DNA of 64,000 bases from Brevibacterium sp. 239c (GTDB taxonomy: Bacteria; Actinomycetota; Actinomycetes; Actinomycetales; Brevibacteriaceae): assembly GCF_900169365.1 (NCBI RefSeq), contig NZ_FXZH01000004.1:1-64000 (forward strand). The letters are read 5' to 3'. Below the pieces are notes generated by a model, which did not search any database, was not told the origin of the DNA, and saw only the letters and a program-made list of their open reading frames with translations. The position numbers were made by a program, and so were the translations under genes. Positions 20,907-35,214 of this stretch are shown piece by piece (position 1 is the first letter of the stretch; each line of letters opens with the position of its first letter).

Positions 20907-21914
20907 TCAGCTGAGGCCTGAGTAGGAGTGCAGGCCGTTGAAGTACATGTTGACGACGGTGAAGTTGAAGATCACGGTGGCGATGCCGATGAGGTTGAGT
21001 ACGGCCACCTTCGTCGGTCCCCAGCCGCGAGTGGCGCGGGCATGCAGGTAGGCAGCGTAGACGACCCAGACGACGAACGTCCAGATCTCCTTCGAGTCCC
21101 AGCCCCAGTAGCGGCTCCAGGCTACCTCGGCCCAGATGGCACCGGCGATGAGGGTGAACGTCCAGGTGATGAAGCCGACCGCTGCGATCGTGTAGGAGAA
21201 GCGTTCCAGATCGATGCTCGCAGGCATGCGGCGCATGAACTGCAGCCACTTCGGGTTCTTGGTCTCGTACCTGTCCTTGAGGATCTGGAACAGGGCCAGG
21301 ATCGCGGAGATGTAGAGCAGCGACGTCGACAGGATCGCAATAGGCACATGGATGGCGATCCAGTATGAGTCGAGCGCTGGGATGAGCTTCGCGGCCGGCG
21401 TGTAGAACACAGTGATGGCCAGCCCCAGGCACAGGAGCACTCCCCCTGCGACGATGGTTCCCAGGTAGCGGATGTCCTTCTTCACGTTGACGATGAGGAA
21501 GACGATGACGGTGATCGCGGTGGCGGTGAGGACGTACTCCATCATGTTGCCCCACGGCACACGCATCACGGACAGCGCACGGGTGAGCACAGCTGCCACA
21601 TGTAGGAGCCCGGCAAGGACGAGGAGCGATGTGCCGATCCGGGCACCGCGCCGAGGCCTCTGTTTGCGCGAACCGGTCGTGATCTCGGCCGAAACGCCCG
21701 TCTCCGGCGGATCGAGGAGGGCCGTCGTGGTCTTCCTGTTCGTGCGTCGCACGTTCGAAGGTTTGGCTGCACTCTTCGCGCTGACTTCGCTCTGTTTGAG
21801 TTCGCGCCCGCCGAACAGGTCGAAGGCATAGAAGATCATGGCGACGGCGTAGACGATCATCGCCGAGATGATGAGCTGGTTCGACCACATTGCGAGGTCA
21901 GTGTTGACGTCCAT
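20907..21914 (-). CDS. ccsB: Cytochrome c biogenesis protein CcsB/ResC (heme handling)
   Basis: 335 residues, about eight helices. The tryptophan-rich heme-binding WWD motif is AEVAWSRYWGWDSKEIWTF, flanked by histidines in YISAILALFQ and VVYAAYLHARATRGW regions. CcsB with ResB (22037-23653) exports heme and attaches it to apocytochrome c (System II). A hydrophilic loop after the first helix (about 35-85) is rich in lysine and arginine. The start ATG 21914 (MDVNTDLAMWSN) is chosen because GGAGG lies five bases upstream. It is the last gene of the hemL-to-ccsB cluster, 122 bases after resB. Confidence 0.92.
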   Translation of the reverse strand: MDVNTDLAMWSNQLIISAMIVYAVAMIFYAFDLFGGRELKQSEVSAKSAAKPSNVRRTNRKTTTALLDPPETGVSAEITTGSRKQRPRRGARIGTSLLVLAGLLHVAAVLTRALSVMRVPWGNMMEYVLTATAITVIVFLIVNVKKDIRYLGTIVAGGVLLCLGLAITVFYTPAAKLIPALDSYWIAIHVPIAILSTSLLYISAILALFQILKDRYETKNPKWLQFMRRMPASIDLERFSYTIAAVGFITWTFTLIAGAIWAEVAWSRYWGWDSKEIWTFVVWVVYAAYLHARATRGWGPTKVAVLNLIGIATVIFNFTVVNMYFNGLHSYSGLS

Positions 21915-22036
21915 ACATCCTCCGCACCAGCGGTGCTCTTCCATTTGTGTTGGGTTGCTGTGCTGTTGCTGTGTTCGAGCCGCCCGCATCGGGGTCGACC
22001 CGCGACAATTCTACTCCGCGTAGTACCTAAAGCTAA

Positions 22037-23653
22037 TCATTCGTCGTCACTGGCAATCCGGCTCCCCGGATGGGACTCGGGATCAGCATCTGGTTTGTCG
22101 GCAAGGTCCTTCGCCAGATCCTGCGCCGCCCGTTCGACCATCTGGTCTTCACCGCGGGCAAGAGCCGCAATTTCGACCTGACCGTCCTTGATGCGCACCC
22201 ACATGCGTCGGCGTGGGATGAACAGGGACAGGCCGAGTCCCAGCAGCACTGCGATCGCGCTGGCCAGCATCAGACCCTGCGTCGGGTCCTGGGAGATGTC
22301 GACGGCGATATAGCGTTTGACCCCGTCGAAGGTCACCGAGCCGCCGTCGGGCAGTTTCTGGGTCTCACCCTCGGCGAGTTGGATGAGCAGAGGGTTGCCC
22401 GCGGAGTCGGTCATCTCCGTCATGTTCTCGGCATCGATCGTGTACACCGACTGCGGGGTTCCGTTGTCGAGGCCCAGGTCACCGGTGTATCCGCTCATCA
22501 CGAGGTAGGGGTTGCGCAGTTCGGCGAAGCTGGAGACCAGTTCGCCGTTCTCGTCCTGAGTCGCTGTCGGCAGGAAGACACCGACGAAGCCCATCTGGGT
22601 TCCGGCGGAGTCAGGGACCTTGATGACGCCTTCGGAGGTATATCCCGGGTCGCCGCCATCGGGGATGAATACCTGCGGCCCCGAATGCACGACCTTTCCC
22701 TTCGCGTCCTTGACCGTGACCTCCGGCGCGTAGCCGTTTCCGGTCAGGTAGACGCCCGTGCCGCCTACGCGCACGGGCTCGTTGACGCGCAGCGTGTGCT
22801 TCTCGCTCTTCCCGCCCGCGGTGGCCGTCACTTTTGCGTCGAAGGTGCGGGGCTGACCGAATTGGCTGCCAGGGGCCTCATCGTCGAAGGTGGATTCGAA
22901 GCTGTCGAGTTTGAGCCGGAAGTCCGGCAAGTAGTCCGCGTTGTAATAGGAGCCGGGCTCGAATGAGTCGTAGGCGACCAGTGAGTTCGTGAAAGTCTCC
23001 CCCTCGACGAGGATGCGCTGGCCCTGGTAGCCGAACAGGGATCCGATCGCCATCGTCAGGGTGGCAACGAGGAGTGCGATATGGAAGACCAGGTTGCCGG
23101 TCTCGCGCAGGTAGCCGCGTTCGGCAGACACATGGTCATCGTGGCGCACTGTGCGGTAGCCGAGCCTTTTGAGCCGAGCCTGAGCGGTGGTGAGGAAGTC
23201 CTGATCCGCGGCTTCGCGGGATTCGGCAGATCCGGTCGCCGAGGTGAAGGTTTCGTATCCGGGCATCCGACCCAACCGCCTCGGCGCCTTTGGAGGGGCC
23301 GAACGCATGGCCTTCCAATGCTGGGCCGAGCGTGGAATCACGCAGCCGATGAGCGAGATCATCAGCAGCAGGTAGATCGCGGAGAACCAGATCGAGGAGT
23401 ACACGTCGAACATCTGGATCGTGTCGAGGAACTGACCCCAGGCGCCATTGGATTCGAGGAACGTGGTGACCCGGCCCGGGTCCTGGATGCGCTGAGGCAA
23501 CAGGGAACCTGGGATTGCGGCCATGGCGAGAACGAGGAGGAGGATCAGAGCCACCCGCATCGTCGTCAGCTGACGCCAAGCCCACCGGCACATGCCGATG
23601 AATCCCAGCTGCGGCTGCGTCACAGCCTGTTTGTCGGCGGTCTTCTTCGCCAC
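22037..23653 (-). CDS. resB: Cytochrome c biogenesis protein ResB/Ccs1
   Basis: 538 residues. Three N-terminal helices (LTTMRVALILLLVLAMAAIP; FSAIYLLLMISLIGCVIPRS; a third near 190), a large extracytoplasmic domain (about 215-450) and a final helix near 465 (MLASAIAVLLGLGLSLFIPR) give the classic ResB topology. ResB partners CcsB in System II heme ligation. The start is a GTG that shares a base with the ccdA stop (TAGTG). A cytoplasmic C-terminal tail is rich in Asp and Glu. Together with ccdA and the TlpA-like protein it makes a complete System II set. Confidence 0.92.
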   Translation of the reverse strand: MAKKTADKQAVTQPQLGFIGMCRWAWRQLTTMRVALILLLVLAMAAIPGSLLPQRIQDPGRVTTFLESNGAWGQFLDTIQMFDVYSSIWFSAIYLLLMISLIGCVIPRSAQHWKAMRSAPPKAPRRLGRMPGYETFTSATGSAESREAADQDFLTTAQARLKRLGYRTVRHDDHVSAERGYLRETGNLVFHIALLVATLTMAIGSLFGYQGQRILVEGETFTNSLVAYDSFEPGSYYNADYLPDFRLKLDSFESTFDDEAPGSQFGQPRTFDAKVTATAGGKSEKHTLRVNEPVRVGGTGVYLTGNGYAPEVTVKDAKGKVVHSGPQVFIPDGGDPGYTSEGVIKVPDSAGTQMGFVGVFLPTATQDENGELVSSFAELRNPYLVMSGYTGDLGLDNGTPQSVYTIDAENMTEMTDSAGNPLLIQLAEGETQKLPDGGSVTFDGVKRYIAVDISQDPTQGLMLASAIAVLLGLGLSLFIPRRRMWVRIKDGQVEIAALARGEDQMVERAAQDLAKDLADKPDADPESHPGSRIASDDE

Positions 23654-24417
23654 TAGATCACCACTTCGAAATCATAGATCAGACCCTGCAGAGAGGTCAT
23701 CCACGCGTTCCACAGCCCGGAGGCCATGAGAACGCCCAACACGATGAGCATGATGCCGCCGGCACGGACGATTGCCGCCTGGTGTCTGCGCACCCAGGTC
23801 AGCCGTCCGGCGCCCTTGTGGATCGCCACTGCCAGGAGGATGAACGGGATGCCCAGCCCCAGGCAGTACACGAATGCCAGAATCGCGCCGCGCCAGATGG
23901 TTCCGTCGCCGCCGAAGCTCACCGACATCGACAGAACAGCTGAGAGGGTCGGTCCGACACATGGTGCCCAGCCGAGTGCGAAGGTCGCGCCGAGCACGGG
24001 TGCACCCCACAGTCCCGCCTTGGGCCGGGCCCGGATCCGGTGTTCCCTCTGGAGCAGTCCGAAACCGCCCATGAAGACGAAACCGGCGATGATGACGATG
24101 ACGCCGAGGATCCTGATGAGCACGCCCTGCCACTGTGAGAACAGTGCGCCGAGGGCCGAGAACCCGGTTCCCAGCAGAACGAAGACGACGGTGAATCCGA
24201 GGACGAACAACGCGATCCCGACGACCACCCGCCAAGATTCCTTGTCCTTGAGCGAGGATCCGCTCAGTCCCGTGACATAGCCGACGTAGCCGGGGACCAA
24301 CGGGAGTACGCAGGGTGAGACGAAGGAGACGAGCCCGGCCAGTGCGGCCGCGCCGGCGGCCAGAAGCAGCGGCCCGTCGAGAACCGTTTGGGCGAAGTCC
24401 GCCCCGATTCCACTCAC
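23653..24417 (-). CDS. ccdA: Cytochrome c biogenesis protein CcdA (thiol reductant carrier)
   Basis: 254 residues, six or seven helices. FVSPCVLPLVPGYVGYVTG contains the first redox cysteine and proline pair, and LGWAPCVGPTLSAVL the second. CcdA carries electrons from cytoplasmic thioredoxin across the membrane to the extracytoplasmic TlpA-like protein, keeping the CxxCH of apocytochromes reduced. Four-base overlap with the upstream thioredoxin gene and one-base overlap with resB show a tightly coupled operon. Confidence 0.95.
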   Translation of the reverse strand: MSGIGADFAQTVLDGPLLLAAGAAALAGLVSFVSPCVLPLVPGYVGYVTGLSGSSLKDKESWRVVVGIALFVLGFTVVFVLLGTGFSALGALFSQWQGVLIRILGVIVIIAGFVFMGGFGLLQREHRIRARPKAGLWGAPVLGATFALGWAPCVGPTLSAVLSMSVSFGGDGTIWRGAILAFVYCLGLGIPFILLAVAIHKGAGRLTWVRRHQAAIVRAGGIMLIVLGVLMASGLWNAWMTSLQGLIYDFEVVI

Positions 24418-25007
24418 TCCGCCTGCACGTCCTCGATGAGGCCCTTGAGCGTCGACTCATCGACCTCTCCGACGACTCGGGCCGCGGCACGGCCCTTCGC
24501 ATCGAGAACGACGGTCGAAGGTGTGGCCTGCGGCGGGAGGACACCCGAGAGCAGAGCCACCATGTCTCCGTTGGTGTCGAGCATGTTGGCGTAGGGCACC
24601 TGGTAGTTCGAGACGAAGGCGTTGGCAGCGGCCTCCTGGTCGCGGACGTTGACGCCGAGGAACTGAACCTCGTCGCCGAATTCCTCGGACAGGGATTTCA
24701 GGGCCGGGGCTTCCTTCCGGCACGGCGGGCAGGCCGCGTACCAGAGGTTGATGACGACCGGCGTGGGTCGAAGGTCGGCCAGCGACATCGACTTTCCGTC
24801 AAGTGTCTCGAAGCTGAGCTCGAGTGGGTCGCCCCTCTTGTCCTTGGCCACCTGTGACACGACACCGGACCCGGACACATATCCTTGATCGGACCCGGCC
24901 TGATCGGCCAGTTCGTCATTTTCGCTGCAGGCGCTGAGCACCACAGCGGTGCCGGCGATCAGGCCGGTCAGGAGGGTGCGGCGGTTCAGCGGATTGCGGG
25001 CATTCAT
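24414..25007 (-). CDS. TlpA/ResA-like thiol-disulfide oxidoreductase (lipoprotein)
   Basis: 197 residues. The N-terminus MNARNPLNRRTLLTGLIAGT has twin arginines followed by a hydrophobic stretch and lipobox LSAC, so it is probably a membrane-anchored, possibly Tat-exported lipoprotein. The thioredoxin fold holds VVINLWYAACPPCRKEAP with the CPPC active site near residue 101. It reduces heme-binding cysteines of apocytochrome c using electrons from CcdA. It overlaps the upstream phosphatase gene by four bases and ccdA by four. Confidence 0.9.
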   Translation of the reverse strand: MNARNPLNRRTLLTGLIAGTAVVLSACSENDELADQAGSDQGYVSGSGVVSQVAKDKRGDPLELSFETLDGKSMSLADLRPTPVVINLWYAACPPCRKEAPALKSLSEEFGDEVQFLGVNVRDQEAAANAFVSNYQVPYANMLDTNGDMVALLSGVLPPQATPSTVVLDAKGRAAARVVGEVDESTLKGLIEDVQAE

Positions 25008-25645
25008 GCTCCGGCCACCGATTGCTTTGGCTGCAGATCTGCACAGATGCTCTCGTAACTCACGGATACAAGTGTGGACGATTCGAATGTGAAACTGGTG
25101 ATAGAAGCCAGGTCACATTCCCGTCTCCGCGGGTCATGGACGAGCGAACGGTGTTCCCCCGCCAGGCGTGTCATCCAGATCGGAAGCTGGTGGGAGACGA
25201 TGACTCCCTCGGCCTCGAGCCCGTGCTTGTCGAGCTTGGCACGCAGGCTGGCCATGGCTGCCTGCATCCGCAGCACGATCTGTTTGTAGGGCTCACCCCA
25301 GGACGGGGTCAGCGGGTTGTACAGACGCACCAGGTTGCGCGGCTCGGCCATGCGTCGGGCGTTGACCTTCTGCCCTTCGAAGGAGTTCGCGGCCTCGATC
25401 ACACGGTCATCGGTGAAGACCGGCATGTCCAGTCGCTCACGCAGCGGGGTGATCGTCTGCTGTGCCCGCAGCAGCGGGGAGCACACGAGTTCGTCCGGGG
25501 TCACCGAGGCGGCGGCGAAGTGCTCGCCGACGCGACGGGCCATCTCATGACCACGGTCGGTCAGACCGAAGTTCGGCAACCGACCATAGAGGATTCCCTC
25601 GGGGTTGTCGACCTCCCCATGCCTGACCAGGTGGATCTTCGTCAT
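25004..25645 (-). CDS. Histidine phosphatase family protein
   Basis: 213 residues. The phosphoglycerate-mutase-like motif LVRHGEVDNPEG at residues 6-17 provides the phosphorylated histidine. CSPLLRAQQT near 57 and VIVSHQLPIWM near 146, with the second active-site histidine, complete the superfamily pattern. Substrate unknown. Its place between hemL and the thioredoxin gene, with one- and four-base overlaps, is common in actinobacteria and suggests a link to heme or cytochrome maturation, but no specific reaction can be named. Confidence 0.85.
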   Translation of the reverse strand: MTKIHLVRHGEVDNPEGILYGRLPNFGLTDRGHEMARRVGEHFAAASVTPDELVCSPLLRAQQTITPLRERLDMPVFTDDRVIEAANSFEGQKVNARRMAEPRNLVRLYNPLTPSWGEPYKQIVLRMQAAMASLRAKLDKHGLEAEGVIVSHQLPIWMTRLAGEHRSLVHDPRRRECDLASITSFTFESSTLVSVSYESICADLQPKQSVAGA

Positions 25646-26982
25646 CAGTTCCCCTGCGCGTTGGGCACACCGGCTGCGGCCTTGGCTGCGGCGGGCAGTG
25701 CCGAGACGATCCGATCGAGGATCTCATCGGTGTGTGCGTAGGACAGGAACCAGGATTCGAAGGCGCTCGGCGGCATGTGGATGCCCGACTCGAGCATGGA
25801 ATTGAAGAACGCGGAGTAACGGTCGACGTTCTGCGTCCTGGCATCGTCGTAGTTGGTGACCTCACGGTCGGTGAAGAAGACGGAGAACATCGAGTTCGCA
25901 GACTGGATGGTGTGCTCGACCCCTTCGGCCTCGAGGCTGGCAGCGACTGCGGGCCGCAGAATGTCCGCGGCGCGTGAGATGTGTGAGTACACATCGAGTT
26001 CTGTTGTCAGTTGGAGTGTAGTCAGTCCGGCGGCGGTGGCCACGGGGTTTCCGGACAGGGTTCCCGCCTGGTACACCGGGCCCGTCGGTGCCAGATGCTC
26101 CATCACGTCGGCTCGTCCGCCGAAGGCCGCGGCCGGGAAGCCGCCGCCCATGACCTTGCCGAATGTGAACAGGTCGGCAGGTCCATCCGGGTAACCGAGT
26201 GTTTCAGCTTCATGGCCGTACCAGCCCGCGACCGAGACGCGGAAGCCGGTCATCACCTCATCGCTGATCATCAGTGCTTCGTGGGCCTTGGTCAGGCGGC
26301 GGATGGTGTTGGTGAAGCCGTCTCGGGGAGGCACGACGCCCATGTTTCCGGGGCTGGCTTCTGTGATGACGCAGGCGATCTCATCACCGTGTTCGTTAAA
26401 GACCGCCTCCAGGCCGGCCGCGTCGTTGTAGTCGACGACGATCGTGTCCGAAGCCTGGGCACCGGTCACGCCCGGGGTATCGGGAAGGGAGAAGGTGGCC
26501 AGACCGGATCCGGCTTGGGCCAGAAGCGCGTCGACGTGCCCGTGGTAGCAGCCGGCGAACTTCACGATCTTCGCCCGTCCTGTGTATCCACGGGCCAGCC
26601 GGATGGCGCTCATGGTCGCCTCGGTGCCCGAAGACACGAGCCGCACCTGTTCGACGGGTTCGACGCGGGCGACGATCTCCTCGGCGAGTTCGACCTCACC
26701 GGTCGACGGGGTGCCGAATGAGAAGCCCTTGACGGCGGCTTCCTGCACAGCGGCAACCACCTCGGGTCGGGAGTGGCCCATGATCATGGGCCCCCACGAA
26801 CCGATGAGGTCGATATAGTCGTTGCCATCGGCATCGCGCAGCCAGGCTCCGGTCGCCGAGGTGATGAAGCGCGGGGTGCCTCCGACGGCTTTGAAGGCCC
26901 GCACCGGGGAGTTCACTCCACCGGGGATGACATGTTCGGCGCGCTCGAACAGCGCGGCCGACTTCGCAGTCTCGTGTTTCAT
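25645..26982 (-). CDS. hemL: Glutamate-1-semialdehyde 2,1-aminomutase
   Basis: 445 residues. PLP-binding lysine is in [19 protein letters not shown] (about 265-285). [15 protein letters not shown] near 20 and [18 protein letters not shown] near 120 are characteristic of HemL. It converts glutamate-1-semialdehyde to 5-aminolevulinate, the step after glutamyl-tRNA reductase. The start ATG 26982 has AGGAG six bases upstream. It is set apart from the hemB-marR unit by 100 bases with a possible TAATAT promoter, so the hemL-ccs genes can be transcribed separately from the rest of the heme operon. Confidence 0.95.
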
Positions 26983-27082: not shown

Positions 27083-27598
27083 TCAGCTGCCAGGGGTCGA
27101 GGGTTCGGAATCGATCGGTGGTGTATCCACTGGTCCCTTCCCGATCTCACGCATATGAGCCGTGACCTTGCCGAAGACACGTCCCAGCGTCGCCATCTCC
27201 TCCGGGTCGAGCAGATCGACGAGGTGATCGCGGACGCTTTCCACATGCGTGGGTGCCATGGTGACGAGGAGATTCCAGCCAGCCTCGGTCATCTGGCAGT
27301 TGACTCCGCGTCCGTCTTCGGCGATCGAGAAGCGCTCGAGGAGCCCCTTCTTCTCCATCCGGGCCACGCTGTGGGTCAGACGGGAGCGTGACATGGTCGT
27401 GTCCATCGCGAGCAGAGCCATCCGCATCGTCCGGTCTTCATGTTCGCTCAGCCGGACCATGATCTCGTATTCGGGCAGGCCGATTCCGTGACTGTCCCGC
27501 AGCTCCTTGTCCAGCTGCACCGTCAGCAGCTGTGAACCGGTGAGATAGCTTCTCCAGGCCTTCTGATCAGGTTCGCTCAGCCAACGTGGCTCGCTCAT
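27083..27598 (-). CDS. MarR-family transcriptional regulator
   Basis: 171 residues, winged-helix MarR fold. LPEYEIMVRLSEHEDRTMRM starts the DNA-binding region, MSRSRLTHSVARMEKKGLLE (about 88-107) is the recognition helix, and the wing contains ERFSIAEDGRGVN. A proline-rich C-terminal tail follows. The ATG shares its first base with the hemB stop (TGATG), so it is translated with the heme operon and is probably its last gene. Ligand and targets are unknown; autoregulation of the heme genes is possible but not shown. Confidence 0.88.
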   Translation of the reverse strand: MSEPRWLSEPDQKAWRSYLTGSQLLTVQLDKELRDSHGIGLPEYEIMVRLSEHEDRTMRMALLAMDTTMSRSRLTHSVARMEKKGLLERFSIAEDGRGVNCQMTEAGWNLLVTMAPTHVESVRDHLVDLLDPEEMATLGRVFGKVTAHMREIGKGPVDTPPIDSEPSTPGS

Positions 27599-28602
27599 CA
27601 GTGTGCCCCGCCTGGTGTGTCTGAGTTGAGTCGCTGCGCAACTTCTGTGGCCCAGTAGGTGAGGATAGCGTCGGCACCGGCCCGCTTGAAGGCGATGAGA
27701 GATTCGTCGATCGCGCGTTCGCGTTCGATGGCTCCGGCCGCGGCCGCGAACTCGATCATCGCGTACTCCCCCGACACCTGGTATGCCCACACGGGCACCG
27801 GTGACTCACAGGCTACCTCGGCGAGGACATCGAGATAGGGCAGCCCGGGCTTGACCATGACGATGTCGGCACCTTCGGCCAGGTCGAGGTCGAGTTCACG
27901 CATGGCCTCACGACCGTTCGCGGGATCCTGCTGGTAGGTCTTCCGGTCGCCCTGGAGCTCCGAATCCACGGCTTCGCGGAAGGGTCCGAAGAACGCGGAG
28001 GCGTATTTTGCGGAGTAGGCCATCACGACGACGTCGGTGAAGCCCTCGAGGTCCAAAGCCTCCCGGCAGGCGCCAACCTGTCCGTCCATCATTCCGGAAA
28101 GTCCCACCACGTGGGCTCCGGCCTTAGCCTGCGCCACAGCCATAGCGGCGTAGCGCTCCAACGTTGCGTCGTTATCGACGCCGCCCTCGGAATCTAGGAC
28201 TCCGCAGTGTCCGTGGGAGGTGAACTCGTCGAGGCACAGATCGGCCATGATGACCGTCGTATCGCCGAGGTTGTCCCGCAGCAGCGTCAATGCGCGGTTG
28301 AGGATGCCCTCGGGATCATTGGCCTGAGAACCCTCATTGTCCTTGTGTTCCGGAATTCCGAAGAGCATCAGCCCGCCGACTCCGGAGTCCACAGCCTCAT
28401 TGGCCGCCTCGAGCAGTGAGTCCAGGGTGTGCTGGACGACTCCGGGCATGGAGTTCAGGGGCGCCGGTTCGCTCAGGGTCTCCTTGACGAACATGGGCAG
28501 GATGAGATCGGCCGGGTCCAGGCGCGTCTCCGAGACAAGCCGACGCAGGGCCGGAGTCGTCCGCAGACGACGGGGCCGAACAGTTCCAGGGACCAATGTC
28601 AT
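27598..28602 (-). CDS. hemB: 5-Aminolevulinate dehydratase (porphobilinogen synthase)
   Basis: 334 residues. The zinc site [15 protein letters not shown] has the three-cysteine type of metal-dependent enzymes. The Schiff-base lysines are in [20 protein letters not shown] and [13 protein letters not shown]. It condenses two 5-aminolevulinate molecules to porphobilinogen, the substrate of the HemC half of the fusion protein upstream in the operon. The start at ATG 28602 ([14 protein letters not shown]) gives the usual length, and a start 49 codons upstream would only add arginine-rich out-of-family sequence. One base separates it from the stop of the HemD fusion gene. Confidence 0.95.
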
Positions 28603-28603
28603 G

Positions 28604-30196
28604 TCAGGCCTTCTTTCTGCGACGCTTCTGGCTGGGGCGCGTCGGGGTGGTTCCCGCCGCCAAGTCGTCCTCGCGTGAGGACATCGCGAATTCGACCAAT
28701 CCGTCGATGAGTGAGGTGAGGTTGGCTTCCTCAGCAAGGACGTCGACACGCAGTCCGTGCTCGGCCGCGGTGTTCGCCGTGGCCGGTCCGATGCAGCAGA
28801 TCACCGAGGTGGCTGCAGGCTTTCCGGCGATCCCGACGAGGTTGCGCACCGTGGATGAAGAGGTGAAGAGGAATGCGTCGAAGTCTCCAGCCTTGATGGC
28901 TTCCCTGATGGGAGCGGGAGGCGGTGAAGCCCGCACAGTCCGGTAGGCCGTGACGTCGTCCGGGTCCCAGCCCTTCTCCAGCAGTCCGGCGACGAGCACC
29001 TCGGTGGCGATGTCGGCGCGCGGCAGCAGGACTGTGTTCATGGGGTCGATGTCGTCGACGTAGTCCGGCCAGGCTGCGGCCAGGCCGCGTGCCGAGTGTT
29101 CGCCGTCGGGAACGAGGTCGGGGGTGATGCCCCAGTCGATGAGTGCGGCAGCGGTGCGGCCGCCGACGGCGGCAACCTTGACGCCGGAGAGCGAACGGGA
29201 ATCGAGGCCGAAGTCCTCGAACCACATGCGCACTGCGCGGACAGCGTTGACGGAGGTGAAGCCGACCCATTCGTAGGATCCGTCGACGAGGCCACGGATC
29301 GCCTTCTCCATCTGAGTCGGAGTGCGCGGGGGTTGGACGGCGATGGTGGGGACAACTGTGCCCACAGCACCCAGCTCACCCAGCGCCTCGGCGGTGGAAG
29401 TGCCCTGTTCCTTCGTCCGCGGGATGAGGACCTGCCAGCCGAAGAGCGGTTTGGTCTCGAACCAGCTGAGTTCGCCTCGTGATTCCACACCCTGTCCCAT
29501 GATGACCACCATACGATCTCCGCCGGTCTGTGCCATTGTCAGGGCCTGCCCCAACGTGGTCTCCACGCTCGTCTGATCGGTCGTGGAGATGCCCCATCCC
29601 AGGAGCACCTTCGTGCCCTCGTCCCAACCGTCGTCGAGCAGGGAGCGGATCGCCTGTTCGTGGTCGGACGTGGTGCCTGTGAGCACATGGGTGGTGTTGC
29701 GGTGCCGGGACACGTCGACATGTGTCTGCGGGCCGGCCTCGATGAACCGGACAGAGCGCACACGGTTCGTCGTCAGCGCGGTGCCTGTGAACGCCGAGGT
29801 GGCTGCAGAGAGTCCGACGCCGGGGACGATCTCAACCTCGACGTCGGCCTTGCGGCACACGGCGGCTTCGGCCGTGGTCGGGGTGAAGATGATTCCGTCA
29901 TCGGAGCTCAACCGCACGACGGTCTTGTCTGGGCGAGCCAGTTCGGCGAGCTTGCGCCCCCGTGTGGAGGCGGTCGCACCGAGCTGAGCGGCTTCGACGA
30001 TCTCCGTGGCCTGAGGCACGTAGGCGGTGACGATCTCCGAATGGACGTGGGTGTCGTAGACGACGATCTCGGCGTTCGCGAGGATGTCGGCGCCGCGGAT
30101 CGTCATCAGACCCGACTCACCGGGACCGCTGCCGATGAAGACGACGCGAGGTGAGGCGGGCAGAAGACGTCGGGGCTGGACCTGGCCTGTTGTCAT
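28604..30196 (-). CDS. hemD: SUMT-like/uroporphyrinogen-III synthase fusion
   Basis: 530 residues. Residues 1-245 resemble uroporphyrinogen-III C-methyltransferase ([35 protein letters not shown]; a [10 protein letters not shown] junction). Residues 250-500 are uroporphyrinogen-III synthase ([50 protein letters not shown]). HemD closes hydroxymethylbilane to uroporphyrinogen III. In the methyltransferase part the usual RLxxGDPxxF loop reads [10 protein letters not shown], losing the glycine and proline that shape the SAM site, so methylation may be lost; that is inference. The C-terminus is basic ([11 protein letters not shown]). It overlaps the HemA-HemC gene by four bases. Confidence 0.88.
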
Positions 30197-32670
30197 ACCT
30201 GCTCCTGGACTTTGACAGGGGTGAGGTGATCCGCGGACTGCGCGGGATCGATGCCGAGCTGCCCCAGCAGGTTCTCTGCCGCTGCGGTGCCGAGTTCGTC
30301 GGCCAGCCGAGCCAGCTCCTTGCCGGTGATCGACAGTTGGTTGGCACTGCTCGAGCCCAGATCCACATCTGGAGTCACGGGCAGTGGGGCGCTCTGCCTG
30401 GTGCGGGCGAGGTTCCCGTCATCATCGGCCATGACGGCTTCGACGACGAATTCCGAGCCCGCGATCGTGGCCAGCGCACCGATGGGGGCCGAACAGCCTG
30501 CCTCTGCGCGGGACAGGATCGCCCTCTCGCAGGTCACGGCCAGGTCGGTGGTCTCATCGTGGAGCTGCTTGAGCTGATCGCGGACCTCGGCGTCGGCAGC
30601 CATGACCTCGTTGTCGAGGGCATAAGGGCTGTCGGCACCCCTTGTCTCAATAGCCAAGGCTCCCTGCCCCGGGGCGGGGAGCATCGTGGTGAAGTCGAGG
30701 GAATCGGTGGCCTCGGCCAAGCGGCCGATGCGACGGACTCCGGCTGCGGCCAGAACGACGGCGTCGAGTCGTCCGTCGCGAACATGTGCGATGCGGGTGT
30801 CGACGTTTCCGCGCACTCCGCGGACCTCGATATCGGGTCTTGCTGCACGCAGCTGCACGGCACGACGTGGCGATCCGGTGCCCACGACGCTGCCGGCCGG
30901 CAGCTGCGCGAAGCTCAGACCGTCACGGCCGATGAGGACATCGGCAGGATCGACCCGCGGTGGGATGGCGGCCATTTGGATGCCCGCCTCCGGAGTGGTG
31001 GGCAGGTCCTTGAGCGAGTGCACGGCAATATCGATCTTGCCCTGGTGCAGGGCCTGACGGACGGCGGAGACGAAGACGCCTGTGCCGCCGAAGCCGGTCA
31101 GCGGCGACATGTTGACATCGCCTTCGGTCACGACCTCGACGATCTCAATGCGCCAGCCGGTCAATGCCGCGAGCTGGTGGGCGATCGCTGTGGACTGGGA
31201 ACGTGCCAACTTCGAGCGGCGCGTGCCCAGGCGGATCGTGCGACCGGAGTAGTGCTCGGGTTCGACGATGTCGAGGGTATGGTCGGCCACCGGCCGCACA
31301 CCGTCGGCTTCGACGTGATTCGCGCTGGAGGCCGTGGCCACCTTGGTCTCCGGCTTCGTGATCGAGTGGGCGACCTTGTTCGTCGGCAAGTCGAAGAGCT
31401 GCATGAGCGCCTGCGCGTAGTCGATGTCCGAGTTGGTGACGGCCAGTTCCTTGACCTTGACCGTCGGCGTGTGGATGAGCTTCTCTGCCACTCGGTGCAG
31501 GGACTTGCGGATCTCGGCGAAGGCCTTGTCGTCAACCTCGGCGCCGATCTTCTTCTCCAGACGCTTCGTCTCAGCGGCGAGCACGTCCTTGGCGTGGGTG
31601 CGCAGTGCCGTGACGGTGGGGGCGACCGATCGTTCCTTGGCACCGGACTCGAGTTTGGTCAGCTCCTCCGCGATGATCGCGCGCACCGCTTCGACAGTTT
31701 CGACGACCGCGGTGTCCCGCTGGTTCGCGGAACTGGTGAGCATGGTCTGGATCTCGCCGAGACCGAACAGTGCCACGTGCTCGAACTCGCGCACCGACGG
31801 ATCGATATCGTGCGGCAGAGCGAGGTCGACGAATGCCTTGTTCGCCGCACCCTTGGGGTTCTGCGACAGACCGGCCTGGATGTCTTCGCGGGTGACGACG
31901 ACTTCGCGGGCACCGGTGCAGGAGACGATGAGATCGGCGTCGGCGATCTCCTCGGCCAGGATCCGGGAGGTCAGTTCGCGGGCGCGTCCGCCCACCTCGG
32001 CGACGAGGCGCTCTGCCTTGTCCACCGTCCTGTTGAGCACCGTGGTCTGAGCTACGCCCTCCTTGTGCAGGCCCGACACGACCAGTCCGGACATGGCACC
32101 GGCACCGATGACCAACGCGTTCGCTGCGCGCAGGGATCCGATGTGCGCCTGGGCGCCTTCGAGTGCGGCGCTGAAGAGAGAGCGTGCAACTTCGTCGAGG
32201 CCGGTCTCGGAGTGGGCCCGTTTGCCCACCCGCAGGGCCTGTTGCAGGGCATGGGAGAGGTCGGAGGTCAGCGCCCCGGCCGAAAGTGACTCGGTGAATG
32301 TCGAGCGCAGCTGACCCAGGATCTGGGCTTCGCCGATCGCCATTGAGTCGAGACCGCAGGAGACCTTGAGCAGATGCTCCATGGCCTGGGTGTCGTAGTG
32401 GGCGTAGAAGTGCCCAGCGATATCCTGCCATTCCTTGTCGATAGAGGACACGAGGGCATTGCCCAAGTCGGCGAGGCCTCCGTGGAAGGCGGTGACGTCG
32501 GCGATGAGCTCAAGGCGGTTGCACGTCGAGAGAACCGCGAGTCCCTCCACATTGTCTCCGGCCAATGCGTCGGTGCGTAATGCTCCGACCTCACCGGCAC
32601 CGAATGCGAGAGCGTCCAACATGTCGATAGGTGCCGACTGATGGGAAATGCCGAGAACCAAGAGAGTCAA
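30193..32670 (-). CDS. hemA-hemC: HemA-HemC fusion: glutamyl-tRNA reductase / hydroxymethylbilane synthase
   Basis: A single uninterrupted 825-residue frame. Residues 1-430 are glutamyl-tRNA reductase: LVLGISHQSAPIDML, catalytic cysteine 50 in LSTCNRLEL, GEAQILGQLR, NADPH motif VIGAGAMSGLV and ALPHDIDPSV. Residues about 430-477 form an alanine/valine/acidic linker. Residues 478-825 are hydroxymethylbilane synthase: RLGTRRSKLARSQ, VHSLKDLPT, GTGSPRRAVQLRAARPD and the dipyrromethane-cofactor cysteine near 727 in AGCSAPIGAL. Both active sites look intact. The protein would catalyse the first and fourth steps of heme synthesis. Four-base overlaps with rex upstream and hemD downstream place it in the middle of the operon. 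The two domains are normally separate adjacent genes. Confidence 0.93.
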   Translation of the reverse strand: MTLLVLGISHQSAPIDMLDALAFGAGEVGALRTDALAGDNVEGLAVLSTCNRLELIADVTAFHGGLADLGNALVSSIDKEWQDIAGHFYAHYDTQAMEHLLKVSCGLDSMAIGEAQILGQLRSTFTESLSAGALTSDLSHALQQALRVGKRAHSETGLDEVARSLFSAALEGAQAHIGSLRAANALVIGAGAMSGLVVSGLHKEGVAQTTVLNRTVDKAERLVAEVGGRARELTSRILAEEIADADLIVSCTGAREVVVTREDIQAGLSQNPKGAANKAFVDLALPHDIDPSVREFEHVALFGLGEIQTMLTSSANQRDTAVVETVEAVRAIIAEELTKLESGAKERSVAPTVTALRTHAKDVLAAETKRLEKKIGAEVDDKAFAEIRKSLHRVAEKLIHTPTVKVKELAVTNSDIDYAQALMQLFDLPTNKVAHSITKPETKVATASSANHVEADGVRPVADHTLDIVEPEHYSGRTIRLGTRRSKLARSQSTAIAHQLAALTGWRIEIVEVVTEGDVNMSPLTGFGGTGVFVSAVRQALHQGKIDIAVHSLKDLPTTPEAGIQMAAIPPRVDPADVLIGRDGLSFAQLPAGSVVGTGSPRRAVQLRAARPDIEVRGVRGNVDTRIAHVRDGRLDAVVLAAAGVRRIGRLAEATDSLDFTTMLPAPGQGALAIETRGADSPYALDNEVMAADAEVRDQLKQLHDETTDLAVTCERAILSRAEAGCSAPIGALATIAGSEFVVEAVMADDDGNLARTRQSAPLPVTPDVDLGSSSANQLSITGKELARLADELGTAAAENLLGQLGIDPAQSADHLTPVKVQEQV

Positions 32671-33362
32671 TTCCTATGCTCCTCAAAACCTGGGTTGAGC
32701 GGTGCCGAATCAAGCGCCGAATAGTATGCGAGTACTTGCAGCTCACTGGCCAGATCGACTTGATGCACACGAATAGAATCCGGGGCGTCGAGCACGGTGG
32801 GTGCGAAGTTCAGGATGCCGCGCACGCCTGCCTCAGCGGCGATGCGTGCCGCAGCTGGTGCCGCGGATGCTGGTACTGCCATGACCACGAGGTCGATGCC
32901 CTCGGGCCAGGTGGCAAGTTCGGTGAGGTCGGAGACCGGAAGAGTGCCGATCACGGTTCCGATCTTGGCCTCATCGGTGTCGAAGATTGCGGTGAGTGAG
33001 AGTCCGCGGCGTTTGAATCCTGCGTAATCGGCCAGAGCTGAGCCCAGCCGACCGGCGCCGATGATGGCAACGGTGCGCGCCCGGTCGAGACCGAGGAAGG
33101 TACGCAGAGTCGAGGCGAGGTCCTCGCAGGAGTATCCGACTCCGCGCCGACCAGAGCGTCCCAGCTGCGACAGGTCCTTGCGCAGAATCGATGACGACAC
33201 ACCACTGCGGGCCGCCAACGCCTCCGAAGAGATCGTTGACTGGCCCGTTGCGGCGATCGTCTCAACCGTCTGCAGATAGATCGGGAGTCGGGAGATGACG
33301 CGTTCGGGGACGTCCTTGCGGACGACACCCTCAATGCTGTTGGCGGACAGAATCTCGCCCAC
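32667..33362 (-). CDS. rex: Redox-sensing transcriptional repressor Rex
   Basis: 231 residues. An N-terminal winged helix (VISRLPIYLQTVETIA; SGVSSSILRKDLSQLGRSG) is followed by a Rossmann NAD(H)-binding domain (VAIIGAGRLGSALADY; IFDTDEAKIGT) and a C-terminal domain-swap helix. Rex releases its operators when NADH rises, derepressing respiratory genes. Its position directly upstream of hemA-hemC with a four-base overlap means it is made together with heme enzymes. The GTG start has a GGAG about twelve bases upstream, a long spacing, so a nearby alternative start is possible. No Rex operator was identified by eye. Confidence 0.92.
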   Translation of the reverse strand: MGEILSANSIEGVVRKDVPERVISRLPIYLQTVETIAATGQSTISSEALAARSGVSSSILRKDLSQLGRSGRRGVGYSCEDLASTLRTFLGLDRARTVAIIGAGRLGSALADYAGFKRRGLSLTAIFDTDEAKIGTVIGTLPVSDLTELATWPEGIDLVVMAVPASAAPAAARIAAEAGVRGILNFAPTVLDAPDSIRVHQVDLASELQVLAYYSALDSAPLNPGFEEHRN

Positions 33363-33958: not shown

Positions 33959-35155
33959 TCAGTCGAAGTAGGCGTCGAGCCCGAAGAATGGGAACAGGCT
34001 CTTTCGAGTGCCCATCACGGCACGGTCGAGTTCGGATTCGGGGTCGAAACCGTTCGTCCAGCGGGTGAATGAGCCGTCGAAGCCATCGGTCATCGACAGT
34101 GGCGCTTCCCGCCCGGTCTTCGTCTGCGCATAGTGGGCCCAACGGCCGGGACTGCGGGCGCCGGGATCGATGTCGAGTCCTGCGGAGATCGCAAGCACGT
34201 TGGTCCAGACGCGAGGCACCACGTCGATGATCGCGTAGCCCCCTCCCCCGGTCGCCAGCCATTTTCCGTCCGTGTGTTCGGCGGCGAGGTCCCGCACCCA
34301 TTCGGTGGCCACCCTCATCGCGTCGACACTCAGACGCATGTGCGTCAGCGGGTCGCTGCGGTGTCCGTCGCAGCCGTGCTGGGAGACGATGATCTGCGGT
34401 TCGAATCCGCCGATGATCGCGGGGATCACGGCGTCGAAGGCACGCAGCCAGTCCGCGTCGAGTGTGCGCGGCGGCAGCGCGATGTTCGCCGCCGAGGCGG
34501 CCGCGCGCAGTCCGCCGATGTCGGCGGGATAGCCGGAGCCGGGAAACAGGAACTTCCCCGATTCGTGCATCGAGATCGTGAGCACGCGCGGATCGTCCCA
34601 GAAGAATTTCTCCACACCGTCGCCGTGGTGGGCGTCGAGGTCGATGTAAGCGATGCGTTCGTATCCTGCATTGAGGAATTCTGTGATGGCTCCGGCGATG
34701 TCGTTGTACACGCAGAATCCGCTCGCGTGATCGGGCATCGCATGGTGCATCCCGCCGGTGAAGTTCACGGCGTGGCGGTAATCGCCGGAGATGATCGCCC
34801 GCGCCGAGTCGACCGAACCCTGGAACAGCATCGCCGAGGCGGCATGCATGTTTTCGAATCCGGGAACGTCTTCGGTGCCGATGCCGAACTTCTCGGCTTC
34901 CTCGTCGCTCAGACCGGTTCCGTCGCCGATCTTCTTCACCGCCGCGATGAAGTCCGCGTCGTGGAGGTTCGCCAACGTGTCCTCTTCGACCTCGCCCACG
35001 CCGTGGACGTGGACGTTCTCGGCGTCGAAGAGGCCGAAGTCCATGGCCAGTTTCGCAGTCAGATCAAGTCTGAGGGGGTGCATGGGATGGCTGGGACCGA
35101 AGTTGTATCCGGTCACCGCATCGTCCCAGACGACATACACATCGCTATCGGCCAT
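33959..35155 (-). CDS. acuC: AcuC-like protein deacetylase
   Basis: 398 residues, class I histone-deacetylase fold. The catalytic histidine pair and zinc ligands are seen in NFTGGMHHAMPDHASGFCVY, YIDLDAHHGDGVEKFFWDD and ISMHESGKFLFPG. AcuC-type enzymes remove acetyl groups from acetyl-CoA synthetase in acetate-using bacteria. The start is set at ATG 35155 (MADSDVYVVWDD); ATG 35164 is equally possible and a further in-frame start lies at 35176. No ribosome-binding site is obvious for any. It is divergent from trkH, and the promoters of the two genes must overlap. Confidence 0.85.
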   Translation of the reverse strand: MADSDVYVVWDDAVTGYNFGPSHPMHPLRLDLTAKLAMDFGLFDAENVHVHGVGEVEEDTLANLHDADFIAAVKKIGDGTGLSDEEAEKFGIGTEDVPGFENMHAASAMLFQGSVDSARAIISGDYRHAVNFTGGMHHAMPDHASGFCVYNDIAGAITEFLNAGYERIAYIDLDAHHGDGVEKFFWDDPRVLTISMHESGKFLFPGSGYPADIGGLRAAASAANIALPPRTLDADWLRAFDAVIPAIIGGFEPQIIVSQHGCDGHRSDPLTHMRLSVDAMRVATEWVRDLAAEHTDGKWLATGGGGYAIIDVVPRVWTNVLAISAGLDIDPGARSPGRWAHYAQTKTGREAPLSMTDGFDGSFTRWTNGFDPESELDRAVMGTRKSLFPFFGLDAYFD

Positions 35156-35214
35156 GAAGACCATGCTATATGGCACGGCTCACCTACGGAGATTCGCATG
35201 CTGCGGGATCTACC

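Follow-up and report, generated by a model that had tools for sequence, protein, structure and literature searches.

Does a single gene in Brevibacterium encode two non-consecutive enzymes of heme synthesis as one protein and, if so, how and why were they joined? The question is raised by a 64,000-nucleotide stretch of Brevibacterium sp. 239c (contig NZ_FXZH01000004.1, positions 1 to 64,000; hereafter the window). In it, an initial annotation had reported hemA, for glutamyl-tRNA reductase (GluTR), and hemC, for hydroxymethylbilane synthase (HMBS), fused in one open reading frame at 30193-32670. The coordinates proved right, and the fused gene, here called hemAC, lies on the minus strand, which had been left unstated. 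We estimate at roughly 75% the probability that hemAC encodes a genuine single bifunctional HemA-HemC chain, which would have arisen through a frameshift on the stem of the genus. Many enzyme fusions that have been explained join neighbours sharing an unstable intermediate; HemA and HemC catalyse steps 1 and 4 of the pathway, and their fusion is kept genus-wide.

A single frame holds complete HemA and HemC parts

The frame opens with TTG at 32670, its stop ends at 30193, and its 825 codons hold a complete HemA part followed by a complete HemC part, with a calculated mass of 86.8 kDa for the chain. Its features are as follows.

30193..32670, minus strand: fused hemA-hemC (hemAC), 825 residues, TTG start, single frame
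32203..32655, minus strand: GluTR N-terminal catalytic domain (GlutR_N, Pfam), residues 6-156
31744..32154, minus strand: GluTR NAD(P)-binding domain (Shikimate_DH, Pfam), residues 173-309
31387..31686, minus strand: GluTR dimerisation domain (GlutR_dimer, Pfam), residues 329-428
30628..31236, minus strand: HemC domains 1-2 (Porphobil_deam, Pfam), residues 479-681
30340..30540, minus strand: HemC C-terminal domain (Porphobil_deamC, Pfam), residues 711-777
32521-32523, minus strand: codon of catalytic Cys50 of the HemA part, aligned to 4n7r
32374-32376, minus strand: codon of His99 of the HemA part, aligned to 1gpj
31006-31008, minus strand: codon of Asp555 of the HemC part, aligned to Bacillus megaterium HMBS structures
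30493-30495, minus strand: codon of Cys726 of the HemC part, aligned to 1ah5

All three GluTR domains are thus followed by both HMBS domains in the expected order. The NCBIfam models TIGR01035 (hemA, 334 bits) and TIGR00212 (hemC, 286 bits) matched above their cut-offs of 209.55 and 164, respectively; a further GluTR model, NF000744, scored 406 bits, under its own cut-off of 429.

The active-site residues were located by alignment to solved structures. Cys50, already named as the catalytic cysteine, pairs with the cysteine of Arabidopsis GluTR (4n7r), and His99 pairs with the histidine of 1gpj, whose deposited chain carries a serine at the position equivalent to Cys50 and which we take to be a Cys-to-Ser mutant. 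In the HemC part, Asp555 pairs with the aspartate altered in the B. megaterium HMBS structures 5ov5/5ov6 (titled D82E/D82N). The cofactor cysteine, which had been placed near residue 727, is present, its exact position being Cys726, and it pairs with the cysteine of the EGGC motif in 1ah5. We take Asp555 to occupy the position of the HMBS catalytic residue and Cys726 that of the residue attaching the dipyrromethane cofactor. All four residues are invariant among 34 aligned fused proteins, in agreement with the earlier view that both active sites are intact. On its domain order and its catalytic Cys and His, the HemA part is predicted to be a glutamyl-tRNA reductase; on its two domains and its Asp and Cys, the HemC part is predicted to be a hydroxymethylbilane synthase. 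The same genome, a draft of 68 contigs, yielded no further HemA or HemC.

The fusion is shared across Brevibacterium

Using a genus set of 57 Brevibacterium genomes, that of strain 239c included, we found that HemA runs into HemC in one frame in 56, single-contig assemblies among them, and that the fusion is uninterrupted to its end in 54, which bears out the original reading of one continuous frame. In the 57th genome (G038) one contig ends in the HemA tail and another begins in the linker, with both frames open, consistent with a fusion split by assembly. Identity to the window's HemA falls to 46% across the fused genomes. Among the matches in the 57 genomes there was no second HemA or HemC; four genomes had additional weak matches, all confined to the NAD-binding part. 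A contig scan reaching close relatives only returned 27 named loci that match the whole or nearly the whole protein, all of them from Brevibacterium.

Searches for the fusion outside the genus were all made within its phylum, Actinomycetota. In the other three genera of the family, represented by one genome each, hemA and hemC are separate and adjacent. The order sample comprised 248 genomes (19 of Brevibacterium), 186 of them with a match; no fusion was seen among the matches listed, and open-frame lengths, compared by eye, differ in 48/48 non-Brevibacterium genomes for which both HemA and HemC were listed. The class sample had matches in 66 of its 74 genomes, with no further fusion among those listed, and the phylum sample had matches in 58 of 75, again with none; 16 genomes of one further family and 5 of another likewise yielded no HemA-HemC fusion. 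The general statement that hemA and hemC are separate, adjacent genes in most bacteria accordingly holds for the related bacteria read, all from this one phylum.

Several candidates for independent fusions were rejected. G374 and G381 have equal reported open-frame lengths for the two parts, but only because the reported frame runs through a stop: their DNA has a TAG between the genes, as does that of G334. The same-frame hemA and hemC of G423, G373, G391 and G414 are parted by a stop, and G427 is listed with an internal TGA (the DNA itself was not read). For G323 a length of 560 is reported for both parts, yet the coordinates give different frames. A second HemA/HemC-like stretch in G434 (L130), with a reported frame of 1151 codons, is really two frames; the copy is degraded, lies near runs of unknown residues and is probably an assembly artefact. 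Seven of these loci, from other families (L110 and L120-L125, in G334, G374, G381, G423, G373, G391 and G414), carry hemA and hemC in the same frame and so stand one step short of a fusion; in G414, two stops are listed between the genes.

The linker probably retains the former N-terminus of HemC

Between GlutR_dimer and the HemC core lie 47 residues (429-475), close to the linker of about 45 residues described at first. They divide into two segments, so that the true linker amounts to only about 32-34 residues and the last 15 correspond to the ancestral N-terminus of HemC.

31291..31386, minus strand: variable linker, residues 429-460, on the side of the former HemA C-terminal tail, predicted disordered
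31246..31290, minus strand: ancestral HemC N-terminus (VADHTLDIVEP...), residues 461-475, predicted strand at 464-469

The VADHTLDIVEP segment is largely invariant across the aligned fused proteins. In the nearest sister genus (G058), the separate hemC opens with GTG, in a GTGA overlap with the hemA stop, and reads VSDHTFDIVEP. Because the conserved end of the linker matches this start, residues 461-475 probably represent the old HemC N-terminus, with Val461 as the presumed former start. In the other two sister genera hemC starts with ATGA overlaps, and a motif like VADHTLDIVEP is absent. Such overlaps are common: among 31 loci with separate genes, drawn from good matches rather than as a random sample, 27 have a 4-nucleotide overlap of the hemA stop and hemC start, another has an overlap of 8 nucleotides, and in the remaining three a short gap parts the genes.

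Trees were built from 52 rows, namely 21 of the 56 fused proteins and the 31 separate loci. The fused proteins form one group in both the HemA tree (100/97) and the HemC tree (100/98), and G058 is their sister in both. The simple reading of this pattern would be a single origin followed by vertical descent. More specifically, we propose that the GTGA stop/start overlap disappeared on the Brevibacterium stem, when the hemA tail underwent a small net frameshift. A 4-nucleotide overlap sets hemC in another frame, and a net change of +1 (or -2) in the hemA tail would join both. It is thus most likely, judging from sequence comparison, that such a frameshift gave rise to the fusion and did so a single time. 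If so, the passage from a coupled stop/start overlap to one chain can still be read in the gene, with the old N-terminus visible.

Among the 56 fused genomes the linker measures 47 residues in 38, 52-71 in 12 and 115-166 in 6, and every difference is in frame. The six longest (L078-L081, L084 and L085, in G054, G055, G015, G013, G001 and G037) are rich in Ala, Ser, Thr, Gly and Pro. In the variable part, with the alignment judged by eye, no stretch is common to all three length classes. For 37 sequences with the 47-residue linker, the ratio of nonsynonymous to synonymous polymorphism (pN/pS) was 0.27 in the linker, 0.21 in HemA and 0.16 in HemC, and variation was greatest at third codon positions. 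This low ratio and the bias to third positions indicate that the linker is under protein-level constraint and is hence translated.

Possible roles of the fusion

HemL and HemB catalyse the steps that lie between HemA and HemC. Because both are encoded by separate genes here, HemA and HemC share no intermediate that could be handed over directly, and channelling does not account for the fusion, as the initial annotation had already pointed out. An AlphaFold model of the monomer (built with 34 sequences) has a mean predicted local distance difference test score (pLDDT) of 76.4, with the HemA and HemC parts both folded. The pLDDT falls below 50 at residues 428-462, and the old HemC N-terminus forms the strand at 464-469. 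Foldseek matched the model to solved HMBS structures with template modelling (TM) scores up to 0.92 and to solved GluTR structures with scores up to 0.59 (target-normalised); in our reading, the lower GluTR value may reflect the movable domains of this enzyme.

We picture hemAC as encoding two independent catalytic modules that would be carried on one chain. HemA would reduce Glu-tRNA to glutamate-1-semialdehyde, HemL and HemB would act as separate proteins, and HemC would then polymerise porphobilinogen, while a flexible tether of variable sequence would lead on from the GluTR dimerisation domain to the N-terminal strand of the old HemC. GluTR is described as a V-shaped homodimer (PMC7242693). 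Since HemC is attached after the dimerisation domain, a HemA dimer should bear two HemC units on flexible tethers.

Such an arrangement could give HemC the same dosage as HemA, the entry enzyme of the pathway, and subject it to any regulated turnover of that enzyme. According to PMC10991733, the abundance of GtrR (HemA) responds to heme via HemX in other Gram-positives, its transcription is heme-responsive in Corynebacterium, and pupylation affects its level in mycobacteria; a HemC tethered to a HemA regulated in this way would therefore get the same level and fate. We put this role forward tentatively, at somewhat less than even odds, and consider it equally likely that the fusion of an already coupled pair was fixed near-neutrally. 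The latter account rivals the role and leaves the single chain untouched: the overlap would have been lost by a frameshift, both activities kept and no functional or regulatory gain made, and the fusion would persist because reversion needs a new stop, a new start and a new ribosome-binding site. We regard the earlier suggestion of a fixed ratio or localised heme synthesis as conjectural, and the 4-nucleotide overlap in 27/31 separate loci weakens the ratio argument, because separate hemA and hemC are probably already translationally coupled; dosage may then have shifted little on fusion, as the near-neutral account would have it. Near-neutral fixation also agrees with a linker free to vary in sequence and in length (47 to 166 residues) and with the lack of any other fusion among the matches listed in the order, class and phylum samples, where no repeated selection is therefore seen. 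On the other side stand the retention of the fusion in 56/57 genus genomes (the 57th being consistent), at HemA identities down to 46%, and the constraint on the linker, both of which are compatible with neutrality too.

A regulatory device can also be imagined, in which heme-triggered loss of HemA removes HemC as well, and a HemA dimer, together with HemL, scaffolds two HemC units at the site where 5-aminolevulinate (ALA) is produced, possibly with the CobA/HemD protein made alongside. We consider this elaborate version unlikely; if true, steps 1 and 4 would be coupled by a shared fate with no shared intermediate. In either case hemAC makes it possible to ask cleanly whether a fusion can be maintained by shared dosage or turnover instead of channelling.

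One protein or two

Val461, the presumed old start of HemC, is encoded by GTC in 32, GTG in 14, GTT in 6 and GTA in 4 of the 56 genomes, and is therefore without a start codon in 42/56. The GTG share at this position (0.25) equals the background at other Val codons (0.317; p 0.32). With a median of -3.15, the ribosome-binding energy at the old start lies close to that of 982 control windows from coding sequence (-2.9) and far from that of the 27 hemC starts with an overlap (-10.2), suggesting that the ribosome-binding site has decayed strongly, if not totally. A start with an energy of -7 or lower occurs between residues 429 and 480 in 7/56 genomes, compared with 61/1032 such codons inside HemA. 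From 429 to 480, seven of the 56 genomes lack any in-frame ATG, GTG or TTG (a first count of 14/56 start-free linkers, taken to residue 478, was superseded once codon 479 was included). Because the start at Val461 is mostly lost, the binding energy lies near background and these seven genomes are start-free, internal initiation from one conserved site is probably no genus-wide mechanism.

Several observations weigh against a single intact chain. The energy at the old start is -6 or lower in 14/56 genomes, a share to be set against 12% of the control windows and 23/27 of the separate starts. The window is itself such a case: its Val461 is GTG (31288-31290) with an energy of -6.0, the values for the hemD and hemA starts being -6.6 and -8.5, and some separate HemC made by internal initiation is possible in this species. 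At least one in-frame ATG, GTG or TTG lies between residue 429 and Arg480 in 49/56 genomes, and codon 479 is GTG in 25/56. In the single-contig genome G049 (L065), the HemC part of the sole HemA-HemC gene found is broken in frame, through sequencing error or because the gene is damaged. The HemC part of G037 contains a run of 239 unknown bases, immediately preceded by an in-frame TGA. Finally, the predicted TM score (pTM) of the AlphaFold model is 0.44, so that the mutual placement of the HemA and HemC parts is not fixed by the model.

The internal codons would fit an account with two products, in which the long frame is read through and HemC comes also, or mainly, from a start within the linker. 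That account draws on the GTG at Val461 in 14 genomes, the window included, and on the 49 genomes with some start before Arg480; it is at odds with the 42 genomes without a start codon at Val461, the seven that are start-free, the presence of a start at -7 or lower in no more than seven and the background-level use of GTG, and we judge it improbable. Marginally less probable still is proteolytic maturation, in which the single chain would be cut within the linker to release HemA and HemC. The linker is predicted to be disordered and is long and Ala/Ser/Thr-rich in six genomes, and a MoaD-MoaE fusion has been proposed to need cleavage (mSystems 2024 survey, PMC11237513). However, the variable part shares no stretch across the linker classes (judged by eye; no search for proteases or cleavage motifs was made), and the conserved part corresponds to the old HemC N-terminus. 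A sequencing or assembly error joining two genes is a general possibility, given the 68-contig draft of strain 239c, and the initial annotation had raised it as a stop and start masked by an error in the linker. It is already refuted at the genus level by the single frame in 56 genomes, single-contig assemblies included, and by the 27 named loci matching over full or nearly full length.

Known fusions of tetrapyrrole enzymes

Fusions of early tetrapyrrole enzymes are already known, and the HemA-HemC pairing appears not to be among the described ones that we found. A HemC-HemD fusion is described for Leptospira interrogans (PMC8698207) and appears in Table 3 of PMC4921024. Like the Brevibacterium protein it is a covalent fusion involving HemC; it differs in joining consecutive steps with the unstable intermediate hydroxymethylbilane, whereas HemA-HemC joins steps 1 and 4 with no shared intermediate. 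A survey of archaeal fusions (PMC11237513) reports HemA-HemB, CobA-HemD and HemC-CobA-HemD. Its HemA-HemB fusion is another non-consecutive pair with HemA, from a single Sulfolobus assembly, and its CobA-HemD fusion corresponds to the gene that follows hemAC in Brevibacterium. HemA-HemC is unnamed in section 12 of the survey. HemA can also form a complex with HemL (PMC6399207) and so be physically tied, as in the Brevibacterium fusion, to another pathway enzyme. That complex is non-covalent, joins consecutive steps and is proposed to channel glutamate-1-semialdehyde, whereas HemL of Brevibacterium is encoded by a separate gene. The literature searched, a body of text outside which most subscription papers fall, yielded no description of a HemA-HemC fusion; the architecture may be listed in protein databases. 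For annotation, the gene is relevant as a case of one protein with two enzyme activities, and it bears likewise on the engineering of heme or ALA.

Gene neighbourhood and heme pathway

The genes around hemAC follow an operon-like order: rex, hemAC, a cobA/hemD fusion, hemB, a MarR-type regulator and hemL.

32667..33362, minus strand: rex, redox-sensing repressor, 4-nucleotide overlap with the hemAC start (TTGA)
28604..30196, minus strand: cobA/hemD fusion (TP_methylase and HEM4), 4-nucleotide overlap with the hemAC stop (ATGA)
27598..28602, minus strand: hemB, porphobilinogen synthase, start taken as ATG at 28602
25645..26982, minus strand: hemL, class III aminotransferase, glutamate-1-semialdehyde aminomutase by context

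The MarR-family regulator, between hemB and hemL, is at 27083-27790. Although rex heads the heme genes, a scan of the window for the Rex operator consensus TTGTGAANNNNTTCACAA that allowed up to 3 mismatches gave no match, where 0.74 would be expected by chance; the operator motif thus lends no support to Rex control of the hemAC operon. In Streptomyces, separate hemA and hemC are described within a rex-hemACD(B) operon (PMC5355995). The gene order rex-hemA-hemC-hemD-hemB is alike in both; Streptomyces makes HemA and HemC as two proteins, whereas the Brevibacterium window has one chain and no such match to the operator consensus.

Elsewhere in the genome of strain 239c, on another contig, genes of the URO-D family (hemE-type) and of the chlorite-dismutase family (ChdC-type) lie close to each other. 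Because both are present, a coproporphyrin-type heme pathway is plausible in this organism. On the same strand as the heme genes and downstream of them, genes for cytochrome c biogenesis (Cytochrom_C_asm, ResB, DsbD_TM and a thioredoxin-like protein) occupy 20907-25007. Upstream of rex, also on this strand, a gene at 33959-35176 encodes a histone-deacetylase-family protein.

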